A DNA stretch of 64,000 nt from Acidobacteriota bacterium (GTDB lineage: Bacteria; Acidobacteriota; Terriglobia; Terriglobales; Acidobacteriaceae). The position numbers and the translations under genes were made by a program. Where the stretch lies: positions 1-64,000 of the forward strand of contig JABCZC010000006.1 in assembly GCA_013289875.1 (NCBI GenBank), written 5' to 3'. Below the pieces are notes generated by a model that was given only the letters and a program-made list of their open reading frames with translations, was not told the origin of the DNA and ran no database searches. Positions within the stretch are counted from its first letter, which is position 1. Each line of letters begins with the position of its first letter. Shown here piece by piece: positions 1 through 15,319 of the stretch.

Positions 1-1
1 G

Positions 2-40
2 CAGGCGCAGCAGGAGAGCTCGGTGCAGGTGGTCGGCTAG
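2..40 (+). CDS. 3' end of an upstream gene (partial)
   Basis: One plus-strand frame reads QAQQESSVQVVG and stops at a TAG at 38-40, 34 bases before the permease start. The short tail and tight spacing fit the last residues of an upstream gene in the same operon. Twelve residues are too few to identify a family, and a chance open frame cannot be excluded. Confidence 0.3.
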   Translation, partial: QAQQESSVQVVG

Positions 41-74
41 TCCAAAGCGGGTATTTTCGGGCTGGAGGCAGCCG

Positions 75-1514
75 TTGGCAAAAATCGGGCCAAAAATCGG
101 CGGTGGCGCCAATCACACATCGAGTCTCAAGCGCGTACTGGGGCGCGGAGACCTGATTCTGCTGTTCATTGTTGCGGTCGCAAACCTCAACATGGTGCCG
201 CCCATCTCTGCCTCCGGACCGATCACTCTGTGGCTATGGGTGGCTGCCCTGCTCTTCTATTTCTGGCCCCAAGGAGCGGCCGTCACCGAGCTCTCGCAGA
301 AATGGCCGGGCGAAGGCGGCATCTATCTTTGGGCCAAGCGCAGTTTCGGCGAGCAGCACGGATTCTTCGCCGGATGGTGCTACTGGCTCTCGAATGTCTT
401 CTACCTGCCGACGGTCGTGCTTTCCTGCATCGGTGTTGGCCTCTATGTCTTCGGGCCGAACATCCAGGCGCTGGAGCATAATCCGTACTTCACCTCCAGC
501 CTGGCCATCGGGATTCTCCTCTTTCTGCTGACCCTCAACATTCGCGGGCTCTCTCTCGGCAAGTGGATCAACAACCTCGGCGGCGTGGGCACAGTGGGTG
601 GAGGGGCGGTGGTCATTCTGCTGGCCGCGCTCACGCTGCATCACCACGGCTCTGCGCTGCACCGCGCCGATCTGCACGTGGAGTTTCATGACTGGCGCTT
701 GTTCGCGGTCTTCGGAACGATCTGCTACAGCCTGGTCGGACTCGATCTCGCGTCGATCATGGGCGATGAGATTCGCGAGCCGAAGAAAAATCTACCTATT
801 GCTATCTTCTGGGGCGGTCTGGCGGCGGCGATTATCTATCTCGGAACGACGAGCGCCATGCTGATTGCCGTGCCGCACGAGGAGATCGGCATCCTCTCCG
901 GCATTCTGCAGGCGATTAATGTGATGGCGCGGCATAACGGGCTGTTGTTCATCGTTGCCCCGCTGGCGTTTCTGGAGTGCATCGCGATTCTCGGCACGGC
1001 CTCGGCCTGGTTCAGCGGCGCGGCGCGGCTACCGTTTGTCGCCGGCATCGATCGCTACCTGCCGCCGGTCATCGGAAAGATTCATCCCCGCTACAAAACT
1101 CCCTACGTCAGCCTGATCGTCTATGCCGTGCTGTCGTCACTCCTCACGTTGATGAGCTTTCTTGGCGTTTCGGTCGGCGAGGCGTATCTCACTCTGCTCG
1201 ATCTTGCCGTGATCCTGCAATTGCTGCCAACCTGCTATCTCTTCGGCTCGCTGCTCAAGCACACGCTCGACGGGAAAAGCAGGCTGAACGCGTCGAAACC
1301 TTACCTGCTGGCGAACGGAGTGGGCGGACTGCTCGCAGCCACAGTTGGGTTGATCGTAGCGTTCATCCCGTCACGCCAGGTAAATTCAATCTGGCTGTAT
1401 GAGATCAAGCTGATCGCCGGCTGTGTGCTGGTCTTTGGGTCGGCGTATCTCTTCTATCGCAACTCGCTTAAGACTGCGCCGATGGTCGAACCGCTGGCGG
1501 AGACTGCGCTCTAA
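75..1514 (+). CDS. APC-superfamily amino acid / polyamine permease
   Basis: A 479-aa integral membrane protein with about 12 hydrophobic segments. The first helix follows a short basic N-terminus (KRVLGRGDLILLF), and the helix 1-3 region with ELSQKWPGEGGIYLWAKRSFG is the conserved APC-family core (glycine-rich substrate loop, then the 'P-x-x-GG-x-Y-x-W' motif). Such permeases move amino acids or polyamines across the inner membrane by proton symport or exchange. The start is TTG, with GGAGG seven bases upstream. It lies 11 bases before an aldehyde dehydrogenase and an omega-aminotransferase on the same strand, so GABA, beta-alanine or putrescine are the likeliest substrates. That specificity is inferred from neighbours only. 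Confidence 0.8.
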   Translation: MAKIGPKIGGGANHTSSLKRVLGRGDLILLFIVAVANLNMVPPISASGPITLWLWVAALLFYFWPQGAAVTELSQKWPGEGGIYLWAKRSFGEQHGFFAGWCYWLSNVFYLPTVVLSCIGVGLYVFGPNIQALEHNPYFTSSLAIGILLFLLTLNIRGLSLGKWINNLGGVGTVGGGAVVILLAALTLHHHGSALHRADLHVEFHDWRLFAVFGTICYSLVGLDLASIMGDEIREPKKNLPIAIFWGGLAAAIIYLGTTSAMLIAVPHEEIGILSGILQAINVMARHNGLLFIVAPLAFLECIAILGTASAWFSGAARLPFVAGIDRYLPPVIGKIHPRYKTPYVSLIVYAVLSSLLTLMSFLGVSVGEAYLTLLDLAVILQLLPTCYLFGSLLKHTLDGKSRLNASKPYLLANGVGGLLAATVGLIVAFIPSRQVNSIWLYEIKLIAGCVLVFGSAYLFYRNSLKTAPMVEPLAETAL

Positions 1515-1525
1515 AGGATTTTCAT

Positions 1526-2998
1526 ATGTCTGTTACGCAAAGCAAGCCGGAAGCCATGTTTATCAACGGAGAGTGGACCGAAGGCTCGTCGAGCAATCGC
1601 ATCCCGGTCTGCGATCCGTCCAGCGAAGAAGTCATCGCCGAGATTCCCGACGCGAGCGTCGCGGATGTGGACGCCGCTGTTGCCGCCGCGCGCCACGCTT
1701 TCGACCAGGGCGGCTGGCCGCAGACAACGGCGCAGGAGCGCGGACGCATTCTGTTTCGCATCGCCGAGAAGATTCGCGCCGAGGCTCCGCAGCTTGCCGA
1801 ACTCGAATCGCGCAACACCGGCAAACCCATTGTTGAGGCAGAGTTCGATATCGCCGACGCGGCTACTTGCTTTGAGTATTACGGTGGGCTGGCCACGAAG
1901 GTTTCCGGCCTGGTCAATCCTGTGCCGGACAATGCGCTGAGCCTTTCGCTCAAGGAGCCGGTTGGCGTGGCGGGACAGATCATCCCCTGGAACTATCCGC
2001 TGCTAATGGCCGCTTGGAAACTTGCGCCAGCGCTGGCCGCCGGCTGCGCCTGTGTGTTGAAGCCCGCTGAGCAGACGCCGTTGACTGCGCTCAAACTCGC
2101 GGGATGGCTCGGCGAATGCGGTGTGCCTCCGGGCGTGATCAACATTGTCACCGGCCTCGGAGAAACGGCCGGTGCGCGCATCGTCGAGCATCCACACGTG
2201 GACAAGATCGCCTTTACAGGATCTGCCGCTGTCGGCAAGCTCATCATGAAGTCGGCAGCGGACACGCTCAAGCGCGTAACGCTGGAACTGGGTGGCAAGT
2301 CGCCGAATATTTTCTTTGCCGATGCCGACTTCGAGGCGGCGATCGACGGCGCTCTCTTCGGAGTCTTCATCAACCAGGGCGAAGTCTGTTCGGCGGGCAG
2401 TCGCGTTCTCGTCGAGCGATCGATATATCCGAAGTTTGTCGAAGCCATGACGGAAAAGGCGCGTTCTATCAAGCTCGGCCCCCCGCTGGATCGCGACACA
2501 AAGATGGGGCCGCTCGTCAGCCGTGAACAGTACGACCGCGTCTGCAAATATCAGGAGATCGGCAAGTCCGAAGCGAAGGTGGCGATCGGCGGCGGACAAC
2601 CCGCGTCCTTCGGGCGTGGCTACTACGTTGAGCCGACCATCTTTTATGACGTCGACAACTCTGCCCGCATCGCCCGCGAGGAAATCTTCGGACCCGTTGC
2701 TGCCGTCATTCCCTTCGACGATGAGGCCGACGCGTTGAAGATCGCCAACGACACGCCCTTTGGCCTCGCCGCTGCCGTGTGGTCGCGTGACATCTATCGC
2801 GCATTGCGAATGGTGAAGGCGATTCGCGCCGGCATCGTGTGGGTGAATCACATGCAACCGACGTATGTCGAAGCGCCGTGGGGCGGTTACAAACAGTCTG
2901 GATTCGGCAGGGAGCTCGGCGTTCATGGCATCGACGAGTATCTCGAAACCAAGCAGGTTCACATCAATCTCAACGAGCAGCCGATTGGCTGGTATTAG
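1526..2998 (+). CDS. NAD(P)-dependent aldehyde dehydrogenase (aminoaldehyde / betaine-aldehyde type)
   Basis: At 490 aa this has the full length of the ALDH superfamily. The glutamate motif LELGGKSPN lies near residue 255 and the catalytic cysteine in NQGEVCSAGSRV near 287. The closing region NHMQPTYVEAPWGGYKQSG is typical of betaine-aldehyde and gamma-aminobutyraldehyde dehydrogenases (PuuC/BADH-like). It would oxidise an aminoaldehyde to an omega-amino acid in the cytoplasm. The ATG at 1526 follows AAAGGA, 11 bases after the permease stop. The next gene is a class III aminotransferase that could take the product, so a polyamine or diamine route fits. The exact substrate cannot be read from sequence. 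Confidence 0.87.
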   Translation: MSVTQSKPEAMFINGEWTEGSSSNRIPVCDPSSEEVIAEIPDASVADVDAAVAAARHAFDQGGWPQTTAQERGRILFRIAEKIRAEAPQLAELESRNTGKPIVEAEFDIADAATCFEYYGGLATKVSGLVNPVPDNALSLSLKEPVGVAGQIIPWNYPLLMAAWKLAPALAAGCACVLKPAEQTPLTALKLAGWLGECGVPPGVINIVTGLGETAGARIVEHPHVDKIAFTGSAAVGKLIMKSAADTLKRVTLELGGKSPNIFFADADFEAAIDGALFGVFINQGEVCSAGSRVLVERSIYPKFVEAMTEKARSIKLGPPLDRDTKMGPLVSREQYDRVCKYQEIGKSEAKVAIGGGQPASFGRGYYVEPTIFYDVDNSARIAREEIFGPVAAVIPFDDEADALKIANDTPFGLAAAVWSRDIYRALRMVKAIRAGIVWVNHMQPTYVEAPWGGYKQSGFGRELGVHGIDEYLETKQVHINLNEQPIGWY

Positions 2999-3020
2999 AG
3001 CAGTTAGGTTCAAGAGCGAT

Positions 3021-4382
3021 ATGTCCACGATCAAACTTAAAACAGAAATTCCCGGACCCAAATCGCGCGCGCTCACCGAACGCCGCGCGCAGGCTGTTCC
3101 ACGCGGCGTGTATGCGTCTGCCCCGCTCTTTATCCGTCACGCCGAAAACGCGACTCTTGAAGATGTGGACGGCAATCGCATCATCGATCTGGCTGGCGGC
3201 ATTGGAACTAATAATGTCGGCAATCGCAATCTTCGTGTGCTGCAGGCCCTGCGCACGCAGCTCGATGCTTTTCTCCACCTCTGCTTTTCGGTCACCGGAT
3301 ACGAAGGCTATGTGGAGCTAGCGGAGAGGCTCAATGCTCTGACTCCGGGCAAATTCGCCAAGAAGACCCTCCTCGTGAACAGCGGCGCCGAGGCAGTCGA
3401 GAATGCGGTGAAGATTGCGCGCGCTCACACTGGCCGTCCGGCTGTGCTCTGCGTCGAAGACGCCTTTCACGGGCGAACCATGCTGGGCCTCACGCTCACC
3501 AGCAAGACTCAACCGTACAAGCAAAACTTCGGGCCGTTCCTGTCGGACGTTTATCGCATCCCGTTCGGGGTCCCCGCGGATTTACGCCTGCGCAGCCGCG
3601 CCCCGATGAGTCAGGAACAGGTGGAGGAGTTGCTCGATGGTGTTTTCCGTCGCGTTGTCTCCGCCGAATCAATCGCGGCTGTCGTTGTTGAGCCAATACT
3701 CGGCGAGGGCGGTTTCGTCGTGCCACCCGCGGGATTTCTGCCCGCACTGGCCGATATCTGCCACAGGCATGGCATTGTCTTCATTGCGGATGAAGTGCAG
3801 ACCGGCTTCGGTCGCACCGGCGAACTATTTGGGTGCACACATTTCGGCATCGAGCCGGATCTGATTCTTACTGCCAAGTCACTCGGCGGAGGCATGCCCC
3901 TTGCCGCCATCACCGGACGTGCCGAAATCATGGACGCTCCCGGCCCGGGCGGCCTGGGCGGCACCTTCGGGGGTAATCCCGCGTCATGCGCAGCGGCGCT
4001 GGCCGTGATCGAGGAGTTCGCCGACGGAACCCTGCTGGCGCGCGCCCGCTCACTCGGTGAGCGCTTTCAGCAACGGGCATTCAGCTGGCAACGGCAGCAT
4101 GCCTACATCCGTGATGTTCGCGGCGTTGGAGCGATGCAGGCGATCGAATTTGTGCAGGCCGATGGTGCGCCCTATGCAGCCGCTGCGAAAAAGCTCGCGC
4201 AGCACTGTCTTCGCAACGGAGTGCTGATTTTGACCGCCGGCACGTATGACAATGTCATCCGATTGCTGATGCCTCTCACCATCTCAGACGAAGAGTTCAG
4301 CGAAGCCCTTGATGTGATCGAAGGCGGACTCAATGCAGTCGCCACGGAGCTTGACTCGCAAGCGATAGCCGCCGCGCACTGA
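3021..4382 (+). CDS. gabT: Class III PLP aminotransferase, 4-aminobutyrate or omega-amino acid type
   Basis: A fold-type I, class III transaminase of 453 aa. The cofactor region is FIADEVQTGFGRTG (Asp for the pyridine nitrogen) and the Schiff-base lysine is in LTAKSLGGGMP near residue 284. The N-terminal GTNNVGN and VNSGAEAVENAVKIAR motifs match GabT. It would transfer the amino group of GABA (or beta-alanine) to 2-oxoglutarate and give a semialdehyde. The track ORF begins at 2865 inside the dehydrogenase; ATG 3021, 22 bases after that gene's stop, restores the usual GabT length. Semialdehyde dehydrogenases at 4403 and 11622 could use the product. GABA versus beta-alanine specificity is unresolved. 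Confidence 0.82.
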   Translation: MSTIKLKTEIPGPKSRALTERRAQAVPRGVYASAPLFIRHAENATLEDVDGNRIIDLAGGIGTNNVGNRNLRVLQALRTQLDAFLHLCFSVTGYEGYVELAERLNALTPGKFAKKTLLVNSGAEAVENAVKIARAHTGRPAVLCVEDAFHGRTMLGLTLTSKTQPYKQNFGPFLSDVYRIPFGVPADLRLRSRAPMSQEQVEELLDGVFRRVVSAESIAAVVVEPILGEGGFVVPPAGFLPALADICHRHGIVFIADEVQTGFGRTGELFGCTHFGIEPDLILTAKSLGGGMPLAAITGRAEIMDAPGPGGLGGTFGGNPASCAAALAVIEEFADGTLLARARSLGERFQQRAFSWQRQHAYIRDVRGVGAMQAIEFVQADGAPYAAAAKKLAQHCLRNGVLILTAGTYDNVIRLLMPLTISDEEFSEALDVIEGGLNAVATELDSQAIAAAH

Positions 4383-4386
4383 CCTT

Positions 4387-4416
4387 ACTAGAACTTGCGC
4401 GACTAGAACTTGCGCG
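4387..4416. repeat. Perfect 15-bp tandem duplication
   Basis: ACTAGAACTTGCGCG occurs twice head to tail. The second copy holds the last codons and the stop of the minus-strand mmsA; the first copy lies just beyond the stop. It fills most of the 20-base gap between the convergent aminotransferase and dehydrogenase genes. Confidence 0.9.
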
Positions 4417-5893
4417 AATGCTCTTTGGCCCAGCGCTCCACTACGATTTTTTTCTCGGTGTAGAACTCGACCGAGTCTCGGCCCTGCGCATGCATGATCC
4501 CGAAGAAGCTGTCTTTCCAGCCACTGAAGGGGAAGTAGGCCATGGGAGCGGCCACGCCGATGTTGATGCCGATGTTTCCCGCCGGTGCTTCGTAGCGGAA
4601 TCGCCTTGCCGCCGCTCCGCTTGACGTGAAGAGTGAAGCCTGGTTCCCATAGGGGCTGCGTTCCAGGAACGCCAGCGCCTCGTCCAGATCGTTGGCGTGC
4701 ACCAGGCTCAGCACTGGTCCAAAGATTTCGGTGTCCGTCAGCTCACTCGTCGCGGGAACAGCATCGAGGATCGTGGGCTTCACAAAGCTGCCCTGCTCAT
4801 AGCCGGAGATCTTCGCGCCGCGCCCATCGAGCAGCACTTTTGCGCCTTCATCTCTGCCGCGTCCCACCAGCGACTCGATGCGCGACTTGCTCTGCTGCGT
4901 AATTACAGGACCCATCTGCACGCCTTCGTCCAGACCATTGCCGACCTTCAGTTTGCTGGCAGAGTTGGCAATCGCGTCTCTAAAAGTGCGCTGTGCATCC
5001 CCGATGGTGACGGCAACCGACACAGCGAGGCAGCGCTGACCCGCGCAGCCGAAGGCGCTGTCGCTGATGATCTGCGTGGCCATCTCCATATCGGCGTCGG
5101 GCAGAACGATGACATGATTTTTCGCGCCGCCCTGGCACTGCGCGCGCTTGCCGTTGGCTCCAGAGCGAGCATAAACAGCGCGAGCCGCCGGAGTCGATCC
5201 CACGAAGCTCACGGCGCGCACTTTGGGATGATCGATGAGCGTCTCCGCCGCGGTTCGTCCGCCGTTGACCAGATTGATGACGCCTTTCGGCAAGCCGATC
5301 TTCTCAAGCAGGGCAAAAACGCGCTGCATCGTCAGCGGCACGCGTTCGGAGGGCTTCAGGACCAGCGTGTTTCCTGTGGCTATGGCGTAGGGCAGGAACC
5401 AGAACGGGATCATACCGGGGAAATTCGACGGCGTAATTACTGCGACTACTCCCAACGGTTGCCGGATCATGACCTCGTCGATGCCGCGAGCGACATCTTC
5501 AAGGTTGAAGCCCTGCATCATCATGGGAATTCCGCAGGCCACCTCGACATTTTCGATCGCGCGGCGAAACTCGGCCCTGGACTCGGTGAGGGTTTTCCCG
5601 TTTTCGCGCGTAATGACGCGGCTGAGCTCGTCGATGTTTTCTTCGAGCAGCATTTTCAGTTTGAACAACGGCTGAATCCGGTCCTCGGGAGGAGTTCTGC
5701 GCCACGCCGGGAAGGCGGCTGCAGCCGCTTCTACGGCCTTATTCACCTCTTCCGCGCCGGATAGAGGCACCCGGGCGAGAACATCGCCAGTCGCTGGATT
5801 GGGAACGTCCAGCCACTCGGTTGCTGTGGACTCAATCCACTCGCCATTGACGTACTGCGGCAATTGAAGCGGGGTTGCGACTGCCGTGCTCAT
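4403..5893 (-). CDS. mmsA: Methylmalonate-/malonate-semialdehyde dehydrogenase (CoA-acylating)
   Basis: A 496-aa member of the ALDH superfamily in the MmsA/IolA branch. The catalytic cysteine is in [11 protein letters not shown] near residue 286. The C-terminal run [21 protein letters not shown] and the motif [13 protein letters not shown] are hallmarks of this branch, which makes acyl-CoA rather than a free acid. It would convert malonate or methylmalonate semialdehyde to acetyl- or propionyl-CoA. The track ORF extends to 5959, but ATG 5893 has AGGGAG upstream and gives the normal family length. It is divergent from the MerR/XRE/cupin regulator, with 133 bases between the two starts, and convergent with the aminotransferase. 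That suggests the regulator controls it and that the pathway takes in beta-alanine as well as GABA. Confidence 0.88.
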
Positions 5894-6026
5894 AATGAAC
5901 TCCCTGCTCGAACAGAATGACTGCGAAACTAAAAGCCTACAGAAAAGATGCAATGCCAATCAAATATTGCCCTTCGTCTCCCGGGCTGCTACAAAGATAC
6001 TTTTGAGTGCTTTGCCTGGCTGCCGG

Positions 6027-6875
6027 ATGCCGAAGAACGCCACCCATCAAAAATCGTCGAGCAGGAGCAATCTGTCCTTTCGCATCTCCGAGGTTTCGAA
6101 GATGCTGAGTGTCAGCTCGTCGACCCTGCGCCAGTGGGAGAATGCCGGGTTGACGCATCCGAAGCGCACCAAGAGCGGGTATCGCACCTACACGCGCGAA
6201 GAGGTTGAGCGGCTGAAGTCGATCCAGCATCTGCGCTTTGAAAAGAATCTGAATGTTGACGCCATCCGCCACTTGATGGGCAGTGCGGCGCGGCGTGCTT
6301 CAACTAACGGCGCGGGGCGGTCTGCAAACGGGACGAACGTCGTGCCTATCGGCAACAGATTGCGCAAGCTGCGCAGAGAGCGCTCGATGACGCTCGCAGA
6401 GGCTGCCCGGGGAACTGATCTGTCCGTAAGCTTCCTCAGCTGCCTGGAACGCGGCCAGGTACACGCTTCGGTTGCCGCGCTGCAGCGGTTGGCGGTTTTC
6501 TATAAGACGAACGTGCTCTCGTTCTTTGGTGGCGCAGAGCAGTCAGGCAAGCTGGTGCGGCCCGGCCAGCGCATCGAGCTTTCGAGCGAACCGGGAGTTC
6601 ACCTTGAGCTGCTTGCCTTCGGCTCGACGGCGATGGAACCACACCTTTTTCGATTGGCACCCGGAACATCGAGCGGCGGCTCGTATCATCACGAGGGCGA
6701 GGAGTTCATTTTCGTCGTTAGCGGCAGCTGCGATGTGTGGCTGGATGAAGTCGAGCACTATCAGCTTTGCACCGGCGACAGCCTCTATTTTTCCAGCTCG
6801 CAGACCCATCGCTGGAGCAATCCCTACAAACAGCAGGCGGTGTTGCTGTGGATCAACACGCCTCCGACATTTTGA
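6027..6875 (+). CDS. Transcriptional regulator: MerR-type HTH + XRE-type HTH + cupin
   Basis: Three domains are visible in 282 aa. Residues ~15-80 are a MerR winged helix (FRISEVSKMLSVSSSTLRQW, then GYRTYTREEVERLKSI). Residues ~107-160 are an XRE helix-turn-helix (IGNRLRKLRRERSMTLAEAA...LSCLERGQ). Residues ~212-282 are a cupin_2 barrel with YHHEGEEFIFVVSG and ending LLWINTPPTF. The XRE-cupin half matches the layout of PuuR, the putrescine-responsive repressor, whose C-terminus is also TPTTF-like. The start is taken as ATG 6027, because the track start at 5886 overlaps the divergent mmsA; no strong Shine-Dalgarno precedes it. It probably controls the flanking amine-catabolism genes in response to a small amine or amino acid. 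Ligand and operator are inferred. Confidence 0.85.
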   Translation: MPKNATHQKSSSRSNLSFRISEVSKMLSVSSSTLRQWENAGLTHPKRTKSGYRTYTREEVERLKSIQHLRFEKNLNVDAIRHLMGSAARRASTNGAGRSANGTNVVPIGNRLRKLRRERSMTLAEAARGTDLSVSFLSCLERGQVHASVAALQRLAVFYKTNVLSFFGGAEQSGKLVRPGQRIELSSEPGVHLELLAFGSTAMEPHLFRLAPGTSSGGSYHHEGEEFIFVVSGSCDVWLDEVEHYQLCTGDSLYFSSSQTHRWSNPYKQQAVLLWINTPPTF

Positions 6876-6899
6876 GGCAGAGTAAGGTCTCTGTGCCTC
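6874..6899. terminator. Possible bidirectional hairpin between convergent genes
   Basis: GAGGCAGAG can pair with CTC(TG)TGCCTC, nine base pairs with a two-base bulge, at the junction of the regulator and the oppositely oriented TonB receptor. No T-tract follows, so function as an intrinsic terminator is uncertain. Confidence 0.3.
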
Positions 6900-6929
6900 T
6901 ATGAGTACTGGCGCCTGGACGCGCAGTCC

Positions 6930-9900
6930 CTACATCCTGAAGCGAAGGGCCAGCTGGATCTGGCGCGGATCGCGGGCACGCGTGATTTCGCCGAACAGCC
7001 CGCCGGCCACCGGCGTTCCGTTGGGATTCGTACTGTAGTCAAACTGCGCATCTCCCAACTGGCCGTCAGGGTTCAGGAATTGCGTGTGATTAAAGATGTT
7101 GAATACCTGGAAGACAAACTGAATTGTCCCTCTGTCACCGACAGGGGTTAGTTTCTGCACCGCCAGGTCCGTATCGGCGATCCCCGGCCCGCAGCAGATG
7201 CTGCGCGGCGCATTGCCGGCCGAGCCCAGAGCGGGAACAGCGAAGATCGAAGGATTGAAGTAGTAGCCGGTCGAGCCGTTTAACGGCGTGCGTGGATTGC
7301 GGTGCGTAAAGGGCAGGACCTGATCGGGCCGGCCTGGGTTCTCGAAGTCGGCGCTGCCTTGCAGTTCCTGATCGAGGTTGGAGTCGAAGCGAATCGGGAA
7401 ACCTGACTGGAGAGTGAGAATCCCAGAGGTCTGCCAGCCATCAAGCATTACGCCGCGTGCCCCTGAATACTTCGGCACGGGCAGATCCCACACGCCGCTG
7501 AATACGAAGCGGTTGCGGGCATCGTAGAGTGAGAGCGCGCGATCGCGTGCGAAATCCAGAGGATCGAGGCTCTGCTCGAAACTGGACGCATCGTCCACCG
7601 ATTTACTCCACGTGTAGGCGGCCAGGAATTGCAATCCGTGGGAAAAGCGCTTTTCCAGCGATGCCTGCAGCGAGTTGTACGCAGAGTTGGCGACCACATT
7701 CTGCGCGAAGATGCTGGAGAAGACCGGCACGCCGTCCGGTGGGCAATTCGCGCCGGAGATGGGATCGCAATACGGCGAAGAATATTGGCGCAGGCCGACC
7801 AGTGTAATCGGGCTCTGCACCACAGTTCCGCCTGGGATGAACGATGTCGATCCATAGGGAAGATGCAGTCCCTGCGGCGCGATCGTCTCTCCGCCTGGGA
7901 TTATGTATTCGGAATCTTCGCCGTAAGGCCCGCAGTTATAGCTCGAGTCGTTGTTGTAGGCGGATGTTGCGATTAGATCGAGACACGTCTGAGGATTGCC
8001 ATGGTTTAAGTCATAAGTCGCCAGCAGACGATGTCCCTGCGAACCGACATACCCCAGGGTCATGACCAGGTTCGTGGCCAATTGCTGCTGGATCTGAAGG
8101 TTGTACTGTACCGTGTATTGCGTTCTTAGATTAGGCTCAAGCTCACCGAACATGAGAATGGGCCGGAAGGCAGACCAGTCCACCGGCTGACCGCGCTTCG
8201 GCTCGAGAAAGCCATTGAAGGCGTTGGGGCTGACGGTGCCGGATTGACTGACGAAGGGAGTTTGAAACAGCGGCGCCGACAAACTGTTGCTGCCGCCGAA
8301 CGGTGGTTCACCCTGGAACTGCTCAAGAACTAACTGCTCCATGGGGTTGTAGAAGATGCCGAAGCCGGAGCGAACCACCAGCTTGCCCTGAAAGCTCTCC
8401 GGACTCCAAGCCATGCCGATCCGCGGCGCGAAAGCCTTGTAGTAAGTTGCGGTCAATCCGGCCGGAATGCCCTTGTCTCCGGGAACCACGAGCCCCAGCG
8501 GGAAGACAGACTCGTTCGCACTGCCCGGGCCGCAGTCAGCCGTGTCCGTACCGAGGGTCGCCTGGCTTTCGGCAGACAGCTGGCACGGAAAGATGGTGTC
8601 TGCTTGTCCGGCGCGGAAGGTCTGGACGCGGTGCGATACATCGGCGAGCGGCTGGTTCAGCTCCCAGCGCAGGCCGTAGTTGAGGGTGAGGGTTGGAGAA
8701 ATTTTGAAGCTGTCCTGTGCGAAAAGGTAGAGCGCGTTGGCGCGAATATTCTCCGTTTGCGGCGAGCCCTGCGAATAGCTGTCGGGCAGGCCGAGGTAGT
8801 AATTGCCGAACAGGTTCGACGCACCCAGGTCGTTTTCGCTCCCGCCACTGTATCCGTAAAAGCCGTTCAGGTTGTAATAAAGGGTCTGATCGAATCGCTG
8901 GTTGCGGAAGTCAACGCCAAACTTCAGGGAATGTCTTCCGATCGTCTTGGAGAAGTTATCCATGAAGGAGTAGGTATTTCCCGTCTGCGGCAGCTCGCCT
9001 TCGCTGTCGTTGCCGATCGTGAACCCGCCGCTGATGCTGATGTAAGGAAGACCTTCGCGAGCCGCGGTCAGGCCAGGTGTAATCCCAAGCTTGGGATTGT
9101 TTGGAATCGGCGTTGCATTGCCGGAATTATCGTAGGAATTGAGCGGCGTGTCGGTGTTTCCGTTGAAGCAGAAGGCCGCTGCAACTCCTGTACAGGAGGC
9201 GGTCACCAGATTCGTTCGTTGTGGATGTAGGAAGGTCATCTGGCCTTCGCGATAGTAGGTCACGCGCGCTTCGTTCTGCGTCGTAGGACTTATCGTCCAG
9301 GTTTCCGCGATATTGATCTGCTGATTCCGAGTGGCGTCGTTGCTGCCAAATCCGGGCAGAAGATTGGGGATTTCCGCCTGGAAGCGGGTGAATGGATTTT
9401 CCTCGAAGTCATCGTCAACGTAGTAGTAGCCTGTCAACGTATTCTTTTCGTTGAATGTGTGATCGATGCGCACCGTACCCTGGTTCTCACGCGCATGCTG
9501 ATTGGGCGCGCCCTCAAACTCATCGCCGGCTACGTTTGGATACGGCACATAATTGTCGACAACATTCGCTGCGACCGGGTCGAAGCAGGCAGTGGGTATT
9601 ACGTTACCCGGAAATACCCCGCTCCACGGTGCGGCATTGCCCTGCGCGACACTCACCGGATTCGGGGGAGTGCCGCCCTCGCCGGAAATGGCGGCGGCGC
9701 AGCCCGCCCGATTCTGCAGAATCGAGGCAACGGTGGCATCGGTCAGGTTGCCGGAAAACGGCGACGAGTCGTTGAAGATGCCGTCGCGCTCCTGTTGGGT
9801 AGGCACTTGCACGCGGTCGGAGCTGATGCCTTTGACAAGCTGCCGTCCTTCATAGGAAACAAAGTAGAAGGTCTTGTTTTTGCGGATGGGGCCGCCGATG

Positions 9901-10787
9901 GTAGCGCCGAACTGGAGCTGCGAGTCATCGGGCGTAGCCAGATCAAAATAGCCTTTAGAATCCATCGCCTGGTTGCGGACGTAAGTGTAGATGCTGCCGT
10001 GATAATCGTTGGTTCCCGCCTTGGTCACCACGTTGATCACTGCCCCGGAATTGCGTCCGTACTCGGCGTCGAAGGTGTTGGTAATCACGCGAAATTCGTC
10101 GATCGCGTCGGGAGACGGCTCAATTCCCGGCGCGTTCACAAACAGGTCGTTGCCGTCACCGCCGTTCACGCTGAAGTTGTTCGAGCGCCCACGGCCACCA
10201 TTCACCGAAACCGCGCCCGCCTGATCGCTGCCGTAGAACAGGTCTGAGCCGCCCACACCCGTCACGCCGGGCTGTAGCTGCAAAAGCTGATAGGTGTCTC
10301 GCTGATTGAGGGGCAGGTTCTCTACGGTCCGCGAATCCATCACTGCGCCCAACTGCGTGCTGGTTGTATCGACCAGCGGCGCTGATGCCGTCACCTCGAC
10401 TGATTGCGCGGTTGAGCCGACGCTCAAGTGAACGTCATAACTCACCGTTGCATTGAGCTGCACGTTGATCCCATCTGCGATCGATTCCTGGAAGCCTGCG
10501 GCTTGTGTCTGCAGCTTGTACTGCCCCACCGGTACGGAGAGAAAGATGTAATCGCCACTCTTCCCCGCCTCGGCCCTGAGGGCTACGCCGGAACTCGTGT
10601 TGGTCAGGGTAAGCGTGGCTCCGGGAATCACCGCGCCCGTAGGGTCGAGCACCCGGCCCTGAACGCGGCCCGCCGTGGATTGTGCAGTACATAAATGGGG
10701 AAGGCAAAACTGGAGAAGCGAGAAGAAAAGCGTGGGAGCGAGGAAGAAGAAAGAGCTCCGGCGACAGCGACCTGCGGAAAACAGCAT
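6930..10787 (-). CDS. Oar-like TonB-dependent receptor with carboxypeptidase-regulatory-like domain
   Basis: A 1285-aa outer-membrane protein. A signal peptide (to about residue 36, ending ...LCTAQS) is followed by a beta-sandwich carboxypeptidase-regulatory-like domain (GRVQGRVLDPTGAVIPGATL, ~38-120). Next come a plug-like region (SVNGGRGRSNNFSVNGGDGN, VINVVTKAGTNDYHG) and a long beta-barrel ending LALRFRM. This architecture is abundant in acidobacteria and is linked to TonB-driven uptake of large or complex ligands. The start is ATG with GAGG about eight bases upstream. It is convergent with the regulator and divergent from the GNAT gene. Substrate unknown; its position suggests peptides, amines or their polymers, but receptors of this type are often placed without regard to neighbours. 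Confidence 0.88.
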   Translation of the reverse strand: MLFSAGRCRRSSFFFLAPTLFFSLLQFCLPHLCTAQSTAGRVQGRVLDPTGAVIPGATLTLTNTSSGVALRAEAGKSGDYIFLSVPVGQYKLQTQAAGFQESIADGINVQLNATVSYDVHLSVGSTAQSVEVTASAPLVDTTSTQLGAVMDSRTVENLPLNQRDTYQLLQLQPGVTGVGGSDLFYGSDQAGAVSVNGGRGRSNNFSVNGGDGNDLFVNAPGIEPSPDAIDEFRVITNTFDAEYGRNSGAVINVVTKAGTNDYHGSIYTYVRNQAMDSKGYFDLATPDDSQLQFGATIGGPIRKNKTFYFVSYEGRQLVKGISSDRVQVPTQQERDGIFNDSSPFSGNLTDATVASILQNRAGCAAAISGEGGTPPNPVSVAQGNAAPWSGVFPGNVIPTACFDPVAANVVDNYVPYPNVAGDEFEGAPNQHARENQGTVRIDHTFNEKNTLTGYYYVDDDFEENPFTRFQAEIPNLLPGFGSNDATRNQQINIAETWTISPTTQNEARVTYYREGQMTFLHPQRTNLVTASCTGVAAAFCFNGNTDTPLNSYDNSGNATPIPNNPKLGITPGLTAAREGLPYISISGGFTIGNDSEGELPQTGNTYSFMDNFSKTIGRHSLKFGVDFRNQRFDQTLYYNLNGFYGYSGGSENDLGASNLFGNYYLGLPDSYSQGSPQTENIRANALYLFAQDSFKISPTLTLNYGLRWELNQPLADVSHRVQTFRAGQADTIFPCQLSAESQATLGTDTADCGPGSANESVFPLGLVVPGDKGIPAGLTATYYKAFAPRIGMAWSPESFQGKLVVRSGFGIFYNPMEQLVLEQFQGEPPFGGSNSLSAPLFQTPFVSQSGTVSPNAFNGFLEPKRGQPVDWSAFRPILMFGELEPNLRTQYTVQYNLQIQQQLATNLVMTLGYVGSQGHRLLATYDLNHGNPQTCLDLIATSAYNNDSSYNCGPYGEDSEYIIPGGETIAPQGLHLPYGSTSFIPGGTVVQSPITLVGLRQYSSPYCDPISGANCPPDGVPVFSSIFAQNVVANSAYNSLQASLEKRFSHGLQFLAAYTWSKSVDDASSFEQSLDPLDFARDRALSLYDARNRFVFSGVWDLPVPKYSGARGVMLDGWQTSGILTLQSGFPIRFDSNLDQELQGSADFENPGRPDQVLPFTHRNPRTPLNGSTGYYFNPSIFAVPALGSAGNAPRSICCGPGIADTDLAVQKLTPVGDRGTIQFVFQVFNIFNHTQFLNPDGQLGDAQFDYSTNPNGTPVAGGLFGEITRARDPRQIQLALRFRM

Positions 10788-10911
10788 TCTCTATACCTCA
10801 TGCGAGGAGAATAAAGACGAATCTTTGCCTGTGAACCGAATTTCGTTGGATTGCGAAAGTTTTCCGAAACGCGAACAATTGCAGGGAGCGAAAACCTTAC
10901 ATATATTCAGC

Positions 10912-10940
10912 AAGATTAGTGAAATTTTGATGGCTGTCAA
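10912..10940 (-). promoter_or_regulatory. Candidate promoter for the TonB-dependent receptor
   Basis: On the minus strand a perfect -35 TTGACA (10940-10935) is followed 16-17 bases later by a weak -10 (TAATCT/AATCTT). It would give a leader of about 120 nt before the receptor ATG. Only the -35 box is strong. Confidence 0.35.
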
Positions 10941-11068
10941 GCAAAACTTGGCGTCTCTCGCGCTTTAGGAGAGCGGCAAATGCGCAGAGAAAACAAAGCG
11001 ACTGACTCCGTTTGCGAATAACTTGCGGGTGCGAGCAACACAAGTCGAAGGGATGGGAGAATTATCCC

Positions 11069-11566
11069 ATGAGTGAGAGCAACGTGAGCATTCAGTTGGC
11101 GTCTACCCGGGACATCCCTGAGGTCGTACGTCTCTACAACGCCTACCGCGCATTTTATGGCGAAGCGCCGGACGAAGCACGAGCCTTCATCTTTATTCGC
11201 GACCGTATAGCGCTCTCCTCTGGGCAGCCCGCAGGACAGTTTTCCGTGGCCCAGTATTTTCTAGCCTGGACCGCTTCCGGCGCCGGACGCAAAGCCGTAG
11301 GCTTCATGCACCTCATGCCCTCAACCAACACACTCGCCATGCGGCCTATCTGGTTTCTGGAAGATCTCTTCGTCGATCCCTCCGCTCGCAGAAAGGGCAT
11401 TGCGACTGGTTTCCTCAAGCATGCAGAGGAATTTGCGCGCAAAACCGGTGCCGAGCGCCTTACTCTCGCGACCGCGCACGACAACCTCGCCGCACAGGGC
11501 GTTTACAGCAAGCTTGGTTACGTTCGCGAAGAGCATTTCTGGTTCTTTCATCGTCTGCTTCCTTAG
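11069..11566 (+). CDS. GNAT-family N-acetyltransferase
   Basis: A 165-aa acetyltransferase with the GNAT acetyl-CoA site: the strand WFLEDLFVDPSARRKGIATGFL carries the R/Q-x-x-G-x-G/A pyrophosphate loop (RRKGIA), and the C-terminal part LGYVREEHFWFFHRLL closes the fold. The track ORF starts at 11012; ATG 11069 with GGGAG nine bases upstream removes an unrelated N-terminal stretch. It is followed 55 bases later by gabD on the same strand. Acetylation of a diamine or amino acid would suit the locus, but the acceptor is not predictable from sequence. Confidence 0.75.
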   Translation: MSESNVSIQLASTRDIPEVVRLYNAYRAFYGEAPDEARAFIFIRDRIALSSGQPAGQFSVAQYFLAWTASGAGRKAVGFMHLMPSTNTLAMRPIWFLEDLFVDPSARRKGIATGFLKHAEEFARKTGAERLTLATAHDNLAAQGVYSKLGYVREEHFWFFHRLLP

Positions 11567-11621
11567 ATCGAATGGCATCGGCAGATCATCAGACAAAGAA
11601 AACCGAAGATTGAGAGACAGT

Positions 11622-13085
11622 ATGTTGCAACTTGACCGGAATGACCTCATCCTCGCCCACGCTTGGATCGCCAACGAGCGCGTCCCCTCTAGCGATGGAG
11701 GCACCTTCACCGTGGAGAATCCTGCCGACGGTTCTGTTATCGCCACGGTGGCCAACTGCGGAGCAGTTGAGGCGCAGGCGGCAACCGACGCAGCGTATCG
11801 CGCCTTCGCAAGCTGGCGAAAGCTTCTGGCCAGGGAGCGTTCTCAGCACCTGCAGGCGTGGCTTGCGCTGGTAAGGAAAAACCAGGAAGACCTCGCGCGC
11901 CTCATTTCGCTCGAACAAGGCAAGCCGCTCGCCGAGAGCCGGGGCGAGGTCGCTTACGGCGCGGCCTATATCGAGTGGTTTGCCGAAGAGGCCAAACGCG
12001 CCTACGGCGACGTCGTTCCTGAAACCGCGCCCGGCCGCAAGATTATCGTCACCAAAGAACCGGTGGGGGTCGCGGCTGCGATCACCCCGTGGAATTTTCC
12101 CATCGCCATGCTGGCCCGCAAAATTGCGCCGGCGCTCGCAGCAGGCTGCACCATCGTCGCCAAGCCGGCGGAAGACACGCCGCTGTCAGCCCTTGCCCTG
12201 GCTCTGCTGGCCGCCGAAGCGGGTATCCCCGTGGGCGTCGTCAATGTCGTCCCCGCTTCGCGTGAACGCGCCGCCGCCGTAGCCGATGAATGGTTGGGCG
12301 ACACGCGCGTGCGCAAACTGTCCTTTACCGGATCGACGGCCGTAGGCAAGCATCTGGCGCAGGCATCCGCGCCCACGCTCAAGCGCCTGTCGCTCGAACT
12401 CGGCGGAAACGCGCCGTTCATCGTCTTCGACGACGCCGATCTGGATGCAGCGGTAAAAGGCGTGATCGCCGCCAAGTTCCGCAACTCCGGACAGACGTGT
12501 ATTTGCGCCAACCGCATCTATGTGGCTGACGCCATCTATGATGCCTTCGCGGAACGCGTCGTTCAAGCGGTGTCGAAGCTGCGCGTGGGTCAAGCCGGCG
12601 CAGGTGAGGCGGAAATCGGTCCTCTCATCAACGCCCGCGCCCTCGAAAAAGTGGAGCGGCACGTTGCCAACGCCATCGCACGCGGCGCGCGCGTCCTCGT
12701 CGGCGGCAAACGTCATGCTCTGGGCCGATATTTCTATGAACCTACGGTTCTCGTCGACGTCGACTCCGGCATGGATGTAGCCTGCGAAGAGACCTTCGGC
12801 CCGGTGGCGCCTCTCTTCCACTTTCACAGCGAAGATGAGGTGATTGCGGCGGCGAACGGCACGCCCTTTGGTTTAGCAGCGTATTTCTACTCGCGCGATC
12901 TCGCCCGCGTCATGCGAGTGTCGGCTGCTCTGGAAGCGGGCATGATCGGTATCAACGAGGCGGCGATTTCCACCGAAGTCGCGCCCTTTGGCGGCGTCAA
13001 GGAGTCCGGTTACGGCCGTGAGGGCTCACATTACGGGATGGACGAGTACCTGCAGACCAAGTATCTATGTTTGGGCGGGCTCTAA
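11622..13085 (+). CDS. gabD: Succinate-semialdehyde dehydrogenase [NAD(P)+]
   Basis: A full-length 487-aa GabD-type aldehyde dehydrogenase. The glutamate motif LELGGNAPFIVFDDAD and the catalytic cysteine in RNSGQTCICANRIYV (near residue 291) are exactly those of GabD, and GINEAAISTEVAPFGGVKESG is the usual C-terminal signature. It oxidises succinate semialdehyde, the product of GABA transamination, to succinate for the TCA cycle. ATG 11622 is chosen over the track start at 11400 because the longer frame overlaps the GNAT gene; GAGAGA precedes it. With the aminotransferase at 3021 it completes a GABA shunt, although the two are about 8 kb apart. Confidence 0.9.
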   Translation: MLQLDRNDLILAHAWIANERVPSSDGGTFTVENPADGSVIATVANCGAVEAQAATDAAYRAFASWRKLLARERSQHLQAWLALVRKNQEDLARLISLEQGKPLAESRGEVAYGAAYIEWFAEEAKRAYGDVVPETAPGRKIIVTKEPVGVAAAITPWNFPIAMLARKIAPALAAGCTIVAKPAEDTPLSALALALLAAEAGIPVGVVNVVPASRERAAAVADEWLGDTRVRKLSFTGSTAVGKHLAQASAPTLKRLSLELGGNAPFIVFDDADLDAAVKGVIAAKFRNSGQTCICANRIYVADAIYDAFAERVVQAVSKLRVGQAGAGEAEIGPLINARALEKVERHVANAIARGARVLVGGKRHALGRYFYEPTVLVDVDSGMDVACEETFGPVAPLFHFHSEDEVIAAANGTPFGLAAYFYSRDLARVMRVSAALEAGMIGINEAAISTEVAPFGGVKESGYGREGSHYGMDEYLQTKYLCLGGL

Positions 13086-13098
13086 TTGCGGGTCTCGG

Positions 13099-13638
13099 CT
13101 ACGGCAATTTGCAGCAGTCGTCCTTCTTCGGCGGCTCATCGTTACTGGCATCGAGCGCAACCTTCCAGGTACCGTCAGCCTGTTTCTTCCACACCGTCAT
13201 GTAGCGGCCAGTCTTTGTCTTGGGCGTCCCGTCGCGATCTTTGAAGTGGCTCTCGAAGTGTCCCCAGGTGAACCCCATGTCTCCGCCGGGGCCCATGCGG
13301 CCGCCGTCCGGAGTCCATGTGAGCTGATAATCGGCAGGTGACCACGTCGCGTCCGCGGCGATCGCGGCCCTTCCAATCACCGTAGCCTGGCCGTTGTTCA
13401 GCGTCACGGCGTCGTCGGCAAACCACTGCTCGAATGCGGCGCCGCCGCGCTTTGCCGTGTCGGCCGCGAACTTCGCTTCAAGATCGAAGAGGAAAGAGAC
13501 GCCGGTTGAGTAAGACGGATTGGTCAGCGGGTTGGGGCCGGGAGCAGGCTTCGCAGCGGGATCGAGCTGCGCCCGCGCAATAGAAAAAATGGGCGAAGCA
13601 AGCAGCAGGCAAGGGAAGAGAAGGGCAAAGCGTCGCAT
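13099..13638 (-). CDS. Exported SnoaL/DUF4440-like protein
   Basis: A 179-aa protein with an N-terminal signal peptide (RRFALLFPCLLLASPIFSIARA). The rest resembles the NTF2-like DUF4440/SnoaL fold: FEQWFADDAVTLNNGQATVIGR, then TWGHFESHFKDRDGTPKTKTGRYMTVWKK and a closing GTWKVALDAS strand. Such proteins are small cone-shaped domains used as enzymes or ligand binders; no specific function is known here. The C-terminus carries a CC pair (KKDDCCKLP). ATG 13638 has GGAGG 12 bases upstream; the longer track start (13674) would bury the signal peptide. It is convergent with gabD, 13 bases away. Confidence 0.68.
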   Translation of the reverse strand: MRRFALLFPCLLLASPIFSIARAQLDPAAKPAPGPNPLTNPSYSTGVSFLFDLEAKFAADTAKRGGAAFEQWFADDAVTLNNGQATVIGRAAIAADATWSPADYQLTWTPDGGRMGPGGDMGFTWGHFESHFKDRDGTPKTKTGRYMTVWKKQADGTWKVALDASNDEPPKKDDCCKLP

Positions 13639-13727
13639 CGCTGAGGAAGCCTCCGGGTATTTGCAGGTGAGCATCGCAGGTCGAAACCGCGGACTGAAGC
13701 TGCCTGAAGCATAATGCTAGCAGCGAG

Positions 13728-15149
13728 ATGGTATTGAGTGCACACAAGCGAGGCATCGCGATTTTGATTGCGGGCGGAGTCGCGCTCTACGCCATGGGGG
13801 TGGCGATTGCTGCCGTTGGAGCTCTCCACCTGGGCATGGCATTGCGCGTGGCTGGCTTGCTCCTTCTTTCTGTTACGGCGGCGCGAAATCGCTCCCTCAC
13901 CGGCTGGATCTTTCTCGGAATGCTGGCCGGCGTGGAACTCGGTATCGACGCGCCTCGGGTCGCCCTCAGCATCCGCGTACTGAGCGATATTTTTCTGCGA
14001 CTGATCAAGGTGATTGTCGCCCCGCTGATCTTCGGCACGCTTGTAACCGGCATCGCCAGCCACGGAGAGTTGCGCGCTGTCGGACGCCTTGGCCTGAAGT
14101 CGCTCATCTATTTTGAGGTGCTGACCACTGTAGCTCTGATCATCGGACTGGCAGCCATTAACGTCTCGAAGGCCGGAGTCGGACTGAACACCGCTCAGAC
14201 CGTGGCTGTTGTCGGCGCCCATACAGATCTCCGAGCAGAAACCGGGACAGAACACGAGCCGCCGCTCTCGTGGCAGCAGTTCCTGCTGCGAATCTTTCCC
14301 GAAAACATCGCCAAGGCCGTCGCCGACAACCAGATTCTCCAGGTCGCGGTCTTCGCCATTCTTTTCGGATTGGCGCTAGGGCGGCTCAGCGAAGACGATC
14401 GCGCCCCGATGGTGCGCCTTGCCGAGTCGCTCACTGAAACCATGTTCGCCTTCACCAACCTTGTGATGTACTTCGCGCCCATCGGAGTCGCCGCAGCGCT
14501 CGCGTATACTGTGGCCCACTCCGGACTGGGCGTGATGCTCAACCTCGGCAAGCTGCTCATCACGCTCTACGTCGCGCTCATCGCATTTGCCGTGTTTGGC
14601 ATGCTGCCTGCGGCGCTGCTCGCGCGCATTCCCATTGGCGAGTTTCTGCGGTCAGTTGCCGAACCGGCAACCATTGCCTTCGCCACCAGCACCTCCGAGG
14701 CAGCGCTGCCCCGCGCCATCGAATCAATGGAAGCCTTCGGTGTGCCGCGCAATATCGTGGGCTTCGTAATTCCCACTGGCTACAGCTTCAACCTTGCCGG
14801 ATCGGCGCTCTACCTTGCTCTCGCCTCGATGTTCGTCGCTCAGGCGGCGGGCATTCATATGAGTCTCACTCAGCAGATCGTGATGCTAGGCACGCTCATG
14901 CTTACCAGCAAGGGCGTCGCCGGAGTTCCTCGCGCCGTTCTAGTGGTACTGTTGGCGACCGCTTCGATCTTCGGATTGCCCGAAGAGCCGATCTTCGTCC
15001 TGCTGGGAATCGACGCCCTCATGGACATGGGACGAACCACAATCAATGTTGTGGGGAACTGCCTCGCCTCGGCGGTGGTGGCGCGTTGGGAGGGAGAGTT
15101 CCGCTCGGAAGTGCCGTCACCTGAAGCGGTTGCGGCGTTGACGGAGTAA
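13728..15149 (+). CDS. Dicarboxylate / glutamate:cation symporter (DAACS family)
   Basis: A 473-aa membrane protein of the DAACS (GltP/DctA) family. Conserved parts are FLRLIKVIVAPLIFGTLVTGI in the scaffold, a re-entrant-loop region with FATSTSEAALPRAIESME, and the unwound helix region GYSFNLAGSALYLALASMFVAQAAG. The motif TSKGVAGVPR belongs to the second hairpin loop. It would import glutamate, aspartate or C4-dicarboxylates with protons or sodium. About 80 N-terminal residues precede the usual first core helix, an extra region containing more hydrophobic helices. Divergent from the DUF4440 gene. Glutamate or succinate import would suit the upstream GABA locus but is not proven by position. 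Confidence 0.85.
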   Translation: MVLSAHKRGIAILIAGGVALYAMGVAIAAVGALHLGMALRVAGLLLLSVTAARNRSLTGWIFLGMLAGVELGIDAPRVALSIRVLSDIFLRLIKVIVAPLIFGTLVTGIASHGELRAVGRLGLKSLIYFEVLTTVALIIGLAAINVSKAGVGLNTAQTVAVVGAHTDLRAETGTEHEPPLSWQQFLLRIFPENIAKAVADNQILQVAVFAILFGLALGRLSEDDRAPMVRLAESLTETMFAFTNLVMYFAPIGVAAALAYTVAHSGLGVMLNLGKLLITLYVALIAFAVFGMLPAALLARIPIGEFLRSVAEPATIAFATSTSEAALPRAIESMEAFGVPRNIVGFVIPTGYSFNLAGSALYLALASMFVAQAAGIHMSLTQQIVMLGTLMLTSKGVAGVPRAVLVVLLATASIFGLPEEPIFVLLGIDALMDMGRTTINVVGNCLASAVVARWEGEFRSEVPSPEAVAALTE

Positions 15150-15190
15150 CGACCGCAAACAAACTCCCCGCTGCGCTGCTTCCGGCAAGT

Positions 15191-15199
15191 TGGTATACT
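15191..15199 (+). promoter_or_regulatory. Extended -10 promoter upstream of dxs
   Basis: TGG-TATACT is an extended -10 element (TGn plus five of six consensus bases). No good -35 lies 17 bases upstream (CTGCGC). Transcription from here would start near 15206 and immediately enter the hairpin/terminator leader before dxs. Confidence 0.45.
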
Positions 15200-15231
15200 A
15201 CTTCAAAGAAGAAAGACCGTCGCCTGGCGGT

Positions 15232-15258
15232 AAAGGCCCCGGATGCGGGGTCTTTTTT
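15232..15258 (+). terminator. Intrinsic terminator, possibly an attenuator of dxs
   Basis: AAAGGCCCC-GGATGC-GGGGTCTTT forms a nine-pair stem with one G-T wobble and is followed by more T residues. It could end the symporter transcript, or act as an attenuator, because AAAGACC at 15212-15218 can pair perfectly with GGTCTTT of the terminator's 3' arm and so prevent its formation. Confidence 0.75.
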
Positions 15259-15319
15259 GATATCGGGCAACATGGTCGCGCTCGTCGGGTTCAAGTCTGA
15301 CGGGCGTCTTCACTTATTC

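Follow-up and report, generated by a model that had tools for sequence, protein, structure and literature searches.

A MerR-XRE-cupin regulator beside GABA-type catabolic genes in an acidobacterial contig, with a candidate operator

The gene described here raises the question of what a regulator with two DNA-binding folds in one chain recognizes, and to which signal it responds. It lies in the window (the whole 64,000-nt stretch of Acidobacteriota DNA that was analysed) and is a natural case for asking why two helix-turn-helix folds were joined and whether both touch DNA. Homologues in annotated plasmid records are mostly named "MerR family transcriptional regulator", a name that says little and points to an activator responding to metal or stress. 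With a function, regulon and operator predicted for them, such genes would become a testable polyamine/GABA switch, including those of symbiotic Sinorhizobium.

Domain content of the regulator

The first-pass annotation had described the 282-residue chain as a three-part protein, and this was borne out, as the MerR, XRE and cupin domains all scored above their Pfam thresholds (Table 1). The XRE domain was matched by HTH_31 at residues 108-161 and by HTH_3 at residues 112-161 (42.8 bits, cutoff 23). The ATG start was backed by close homologues, and orthologues in two relatives (L005 and L006) shared 82-80% identity and the gene order of the window. A diverse, non-redundant alignment brought together 48 homologues of Acidobacteriota, Chloroflexota and Alphaproteobacteria, and each of them had all three domains; therefore, the fusion was not an assembly artefact.

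Table 1. Features of the regulator locus in the window.
Feature	Coordinates	Strand	Basis
APC-type amino acid/amine permease	75..1514	+	PF13520 190.5 bits
Aldehyde dehydrogenase, betaine/aminoaldehyde type	1526..2998	+	Closest TIGR01804 and NF010000, both below cutoff
GABA aminotransferase (GabT-like)	3018..4382	+	TIGR00700 538.8 bits, cutoff 506.65
mmsA, CoA-acylating methylmalonate-semialdehyde dehydrogenase, divergent from regulator	4406..5893	-	TIGR01722 558.1 bits, cutoff 448.5
Candidate operator CTACAGAAAAGATGCAA, mmsA/regulator intergenic region	5937..5953	.	YTRC-N9-GYAR dyad; conserved in L005, L006
MerR-XRE-cupin regulator gene, 282 aa	6027..6875	+	ORF; Pfam; orthologues L005/L006
MerR_1 winged-helix domain, residues 18-84	6078..6278	+	PF13411 72.6 bits, cutoff 21.6
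XRE helix-turn-helix, residues 108-161	6348..6509	+	PF13560/PF01381 above cutoff
Cupin_2 sensor domain, residues 207-276	6645..6854	+	PF07883 62.2 bits, cutoff 27.2
TonB-dependent (Oar-like) outer-membrane receptor	6930..10787	-	ORF; named from sequence character
Candidate operator TTACATATATTCAGCAA, TonB receptor vs GNAT/SSADH intergenic region	10897..10913	.	Best PWM match, window 1-16000
GNAT acetyltransferase, between operator-bearing intergenic region and SSADH	11012..11566	+	PF00583 63 bits
Succinate-semialdehyde dehydrogenase (SSADH, GabD-like)	11619..13085	+	TIGR01780 650.0 bits, cutoff 646.35

The AlphaFold2 monomer model (mean pLDDT 88.6) was confident within domains and contained, in order, a winged helix, an XRE domain and a beta barrel, the first two joined by a flexible linker (residues 95-102, pLDDT < 50), with the XRE-cupin protein 1y9q as its best fold match in the PDB. 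A helix at residues 77-93 closed the MerR part and was followed by the low-confidence linker. Because this last helix stopped at residue 93, the long coiled-coil helix through which MerR activators dimerize was missing from the model.

The MerR_1 match placed the regulator in the MerR family in the broad sense, and its XRE helix-turn-helix followed by a single C-terminal cupin is the layout of the XRE-cupin regulators. The nearest solved relatives of the MerR_1 domain were CarH, CueR and GlnR. Scores against the curated CueR, ZntR, CadR and MerR equivalogs fell far below their cutoffs. The best matches of residues 14-88 included CarH, HspR, FtsR and GlnR/TnrA, MerR_1 proteins outside the metal activators; unlike the regulator, these have no XRE-cupin half, and their equivalog cutoffs were not reached either.

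Gene neighbourhood

The regulator was found to be divergent from mmsA and to adjoin genes of omega-amino acid metabolism, as had been proposed; MmsA, the GABA transaminase and SSADH passed curated cutoffs, and the other enzymes matched broad families only. The permease, aldehyde dehydrogenase and GABA transaminase genes point towards the convergent mmsA. Curated models gave no substrate for the permease, which scored far below the cutoffs of the GadC/PotE-type families, or for the aldehyde dehydrogenase. The best solved relatives of the latter were plant BADH/aminoaldehyde dehydrogenases, and from its sequence it is a candidate aminobutyraldehyde dehydrogenase.

The window begins at the end of its contig (C6), and the end of another contig from this genome, C47 (L127:14790-15994), overlapped window positions 1-1205 over 1205 bp at 91% identity, on account of which the assembly is probably a mixture of two strains. 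C47 continued the operon with the start of the permease gene and, directly upstream, a class-III aminotransferase gene. An operon start at position 75 was rejected, as was the promoter expected just upstream of it, since the operon runs on into the aminotransferase gene. This aminotransferase scored best as glutamate-1-semialdehyde-aminomutase-like, passing only the cutoff of the broad PRK00062 subfamily; curated models gave no substrate for it, and an assignment as putrescine aminotransferase was unsupported. Divergent from it on C47 were four genes with PotD-, PotA-, PotB- and PotC-type matches, all below equivalog cutoffs. PotA, PotB, PotC and PotD form a spermidine/putrescine transporter. 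In the close relative L005, the order was aminotransferase, permease, aldehyde dehydrogenase and gabT, then mmsA, the regulator, the TonB receptor and SSADH.

The neighbourhood was conserved across homologues. A class-III (GABA-type) aminotransferase or PotB/C/D-like gene was found in the flank read at 44 among the 55 homologue loci without a fusion (Acidobacteriota 17/22, Chloroflexota 12/14, Alphaproteobacteria 15/19), compared with 0/50 control loci of XRE-cupin proteins without a MerR domain; in these counts the loci were partly dependent (several sister species), flank lengths differed and the controls came mostly from other phyla. Rhizobial regulators were divergent from annotated gabT-gabD. 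Together with the PotABCD-like transporter on C47, these conserved neighbours strengthened the link to amines and omega-amino acids that the first-pass annotation had drawn. The class of ligand is not universal, however, because some homologues adjoin other catabolic genes (ETF/purU/folD in L118/L136 and adenine-deaminase-like genes in L119).

Homologues of the TonB receptor occurred near 16 of the 22 acidobacterial regulator loci. The TonB/Oar-like receptor gene was recurrent beside the regulator in the window, L005, L006 and L101-L103, and shares the operator-bearing intergenic region; the receptor may import an amine-rich substrate.

The suggested likeness of the XRE-cupin half to PuuR, the Escherichia coli putrescine repressor, was upheld by 27% identity over 181 residues and by the tail, in which NTPPTF aligned with the HTPTTF of PuuR (TP(P/T)TF in both). 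The PuuR locus encodes a putrescine permease, an aldehyde dehydrogenase and a GABA transaminase, and the window likewise has a permease and these two kinds of enzyme. PuuR has no MerR domain, however, and the puu locus relies on gamma-glutamylation through puuA/B/D; among the genes identified in the regulator locus, none of the three was recognized. With a score of 63.3 bits against the NF007408 cutoff of 211, the extra MerR domain and no puuA/B/D recognized, the regulator was ruled out as a PuuR equivalog.

The neighbourhood also bears on whether the cupin could sense a metal or redox cue, as in classical MerR proteins, with the amine genes being incidental. In its MerR domain the regulator is similar to CueR and CadR, and Y220, H222, E226 and H261 of the cupin were invariant across the 48 homologues, which can be read as the usual cupin metal-ligand pattern with a tyrosine in the first position. 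By position, H222, E226 and H261 are three of the four usual ligands, but the first is the invariant Y220, and the MerR part is without a C-terminal metal-binding extension. Amine catabolism genes consistently adjoin the regulator, and amines are the signals of two related proteins, PuuR and PauR (PMC7901475). We therefore regarded a metal or redox signal as quite improbable and an amine-related signal as the better reading of the locus.

The candidate operator

Positions 5894-6026, where the first-pass annotation had proposed a check for palindromes, were found to hold one at 5937-5953. It is a copy of a 17-bp dyad, YTRC-N9-GYAR, that was derived by comparing intergenic regions (Table 1). A generic search for inverted repeats with arms of at least 7 in the mmsA/regulator intergenic region found nothing, because the arms of the dyad are only 4-5 bp and alignment of the orthologues was required. 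As with other XRE-cupin regulators, a palindromic site, here predicted from sequence, lies beside the regulator's own gene.

Copies of the dyad preceded regulator genes in each of the three phyla. When the 400-nt upstream regions of 63 homologues were counted, spacing 9 was found in 27, each other spacing from 3 to 16 was found in 2-6 loci, and a first-order Markov null (300 runs) gave 3.6 on average and at most 11 for spacing 9; only the 9-nt spacing was enriched. As the motif had been written after some loci were seen, a held-out count was made, and the dyad was present in 8 of 33 loci outside the motif definition (null mean 1.65; 0/2000 simulations as high). The strict dyad was missing from 36 of the 63 upstream regions, among them those of every Pro_racemase fusion tested and of most Chloroflexota loci. 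No spacing-9 peak was seen in relatives with only the XRE and cupin domains (3/64 loci).

In the same XRE-cupin-only relatives (L017-L084), YTRC-Nn-GYAR peaked at spacings 3 (17/64) and 10 (16/64), which possibly represent an operator of their own.

A position weight matrix (PWM) trained on upstream sites, with 5937-5953 in the training set and 10897-10913 outside it, ranked 10897-10913 first (17.9) and 5937-5953 second (17.2) in window positions 1-16000, against a background maximum of 10.1 over another 56 kb of this genome. A weaker match (13.9) was located on C47 between potD and the aminotransferase gene; scores of 13-14 were not decisive, because a match of 13.4 fell within the permease gene. 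In 874 kb of homologue loci, 35 matches scored at least 15, most of them preceding a regulator, mmsA, gabT, potD, TonB or SSADH gene, at distances that are approximate as they were measured to stop-to-stop frames. In L014, a second exact copy of the dyad lay 24 bp upstream of the PotD ORF.

That the dyad is present at other target genes (TonB/SSADH, potD) and not just beside the regulator gene would suit a different regulator shared by these loci, with the MerR-XRE-cupin protein binding elsewhere. Against this, the dyad recurred beside the regulator in three phyla while the neighbouring genes changed. The long acidobacterial form of the palindrome was found in 2 of 199 genomes, only in those with the regulator and in both beside it. 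A rigid rhizobial form was found in 5 of 6 genomes carrying the unfused regulator compared with 4 of 292 others, and in those 4 genomes no regulator, mmsA, gabT, potD, TonB or SSADH gene was found within the 1.5 kb read around the copies. The association was strong (Fisher about 4e-8, on a near-identical table), with the rarity of the form elsewhere being its informative part, since the form was chosen after these loci had been seen. On this evidence a separate owner of the dyad appeared unlikely, and we take the MerR-XRE-cupin protein as the candidate that would bind it.

The extended acidobacterial palindrome, AACCTTGC-TATAATNNN-GCAAGGTT, was not found in the window even with 3 mismatches allowed, the window carrying only its degenerate core. 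A 62-bp noncoding block at 10891-10952 was 97% identical to L005, compared with about 77-80% for the neighbouring genes, and holds the dyad along with a CTGTCAAG element that was also seen near other acidobacterial regulator genes.

Proposed mode of action and distribution

Published XRE-cupin regulators are local repressors that bind palindromes as dimers, and putrescine releases PuuR and derepresses PauR targets (PMC7901475). From this background and the anatomy of the locus we infer binding to the dyad, repression and the ligand class, and consider it likely that the regulator is a local repressor of the polyamine/GABA locus, released by an amine or pathway intermediate. Dimers would bind the dyad in the divergent mmsA/regulator and TonB/GNAT-SSADH intergenic regions, and probably also between potD and the aminotransferase gene, and would block RNA polymerase there. 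Uptake of putrescine, another polyamine, GABA or a semialdehyde by the cupin would then cause the regulator to leave the DNA, allowing the transport and oxidation genes to be expressed.

Promoter geometry bears on the same question. The clearest case is L103, where a TTGACG-16-TATAAT promoter has its -10 inside the dyad, and this position, with its 16-bp spacer, fits repression. In the window, a simple scan of positions 5890-6040 gave no promoter-like match, and the match to consensus around 10897 was weak. The first-pass annotation had suggested that the MerR domain could activate by bending DNA; the promoter geometry in L103 and the missing coiled coil speak against activation of the MerR type, and what the MerR domain contributes is probably specificity for DNA and not activation.

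A less likely alternative follows the proposal of the first-pass annotation. Conceivably, the two domains could read a composite operator, with an XRE dimer on the dyad and the MerR winged helices on an added half-site, in a looped or bent complex that could both activate and repress. Both DNA-binding domains were kept in all of the 48 homologues, and a TGCAA half-site lay a few nucleotides beyond the dyad in rhizobial L014, L114, L115, L133, L134 and L172. Paired dyads, 31-33 bp (about three helical turns) apart, were observed between gabT and the regulator in five loci (L169, L170, L171, L115 and L131). We treat the half-sites and paired dyads, both read from sequence, as leads towards a composite operator and not as proof. 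Against such an operator, the extra half-site was not seen in the window, L005, L006 or L008, the MerR coiled-coil helix gives way to the linker, and the L103 dyad covers the -10 instead of lying within a 19-20 bp spacer. It is a possibility, though a doubtful one, that these proteins form an undescribed, widespread class in which two DNA-binding folds of one chain jointly read a conserved composite operator, placing the uptake of polyamines and the oxidation of GABA under a single signal sensed by the cupin in three phyla.

The simpler reading, a local repressor, has parallels in Pseudomonas, where PauR controls polyamine/GABA genes including gabT2 (PMC7901475). PauR and the other Pseudomonas XRE-cupin repressors act locally at palindromic sites, and the regulator shares with them the XRE-cupin layout and a candidate palindrome; they are two-domain proteins, however, in contrast to the three-domain regulator, and the comparison covered layout and the presence of a palindrome. 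In many Proteobacteria, gabT/gabD are controlled by MocR/GabR regulators (PMC5320631), GntR proteins joined to an aminotransferase-like protein whose architecture is unrelated to MerR-XRE-cupin; the MerR-XRE-cupin protein may fill the role of MocR/GabR in those loci that link it to gabTD.

The architecture is not unique to the window, being shared by Acidobacteriota, Chloroflexota and Alphaproteobacteria. Of the Acidobacteriota genomes sampled, 15 of 396 carried the regulator (E <= 1e-60), as did 13 of 298 genomes from the order to which Ectorhizobium belongs, 13 of 201 genomes of the phylum of a Thermomicrobiales genome (1e-50) and, at high coverage, more than 120 plasmid records, mostly of Sinorhizobium, Shinella, Ensifer and Agrobacterium. 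Our literature searches on the MerR-XRE-cupin architecture found no study of such regulators. The fold types and general mode of action are already known, and what is new, as far as we searched, is the addition of a MerR domain to an XRE-cupin regulator together with a predicted operator and regulon.

Seven genomes from the rhizobial order (L149-L155) had a proline-racemase-like domain fused to the C-terminus of MerR-XRE-cupin, yielding a regulator-enzyme frame of 630-720 residues (e.g., L149:1489-3369); PF05544 scored 187 bits in the one member tested, and the others were assigned by sequence. The strict dyad was missing upstream of the 6 fusion loci that were fully read, near which a second proline-racemase gene and an aldehyde dehydrogenase gene were observed. 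At the ETF-purU-folD locus of Agrobacterium/Shinella plasmids (L118, L136, L214), the regulator was either a MerR-XRE-cupin or an XRE-cupin protein, and because either type occurs there, a gain or loss of the MerR domain at this one type of locus is possible.
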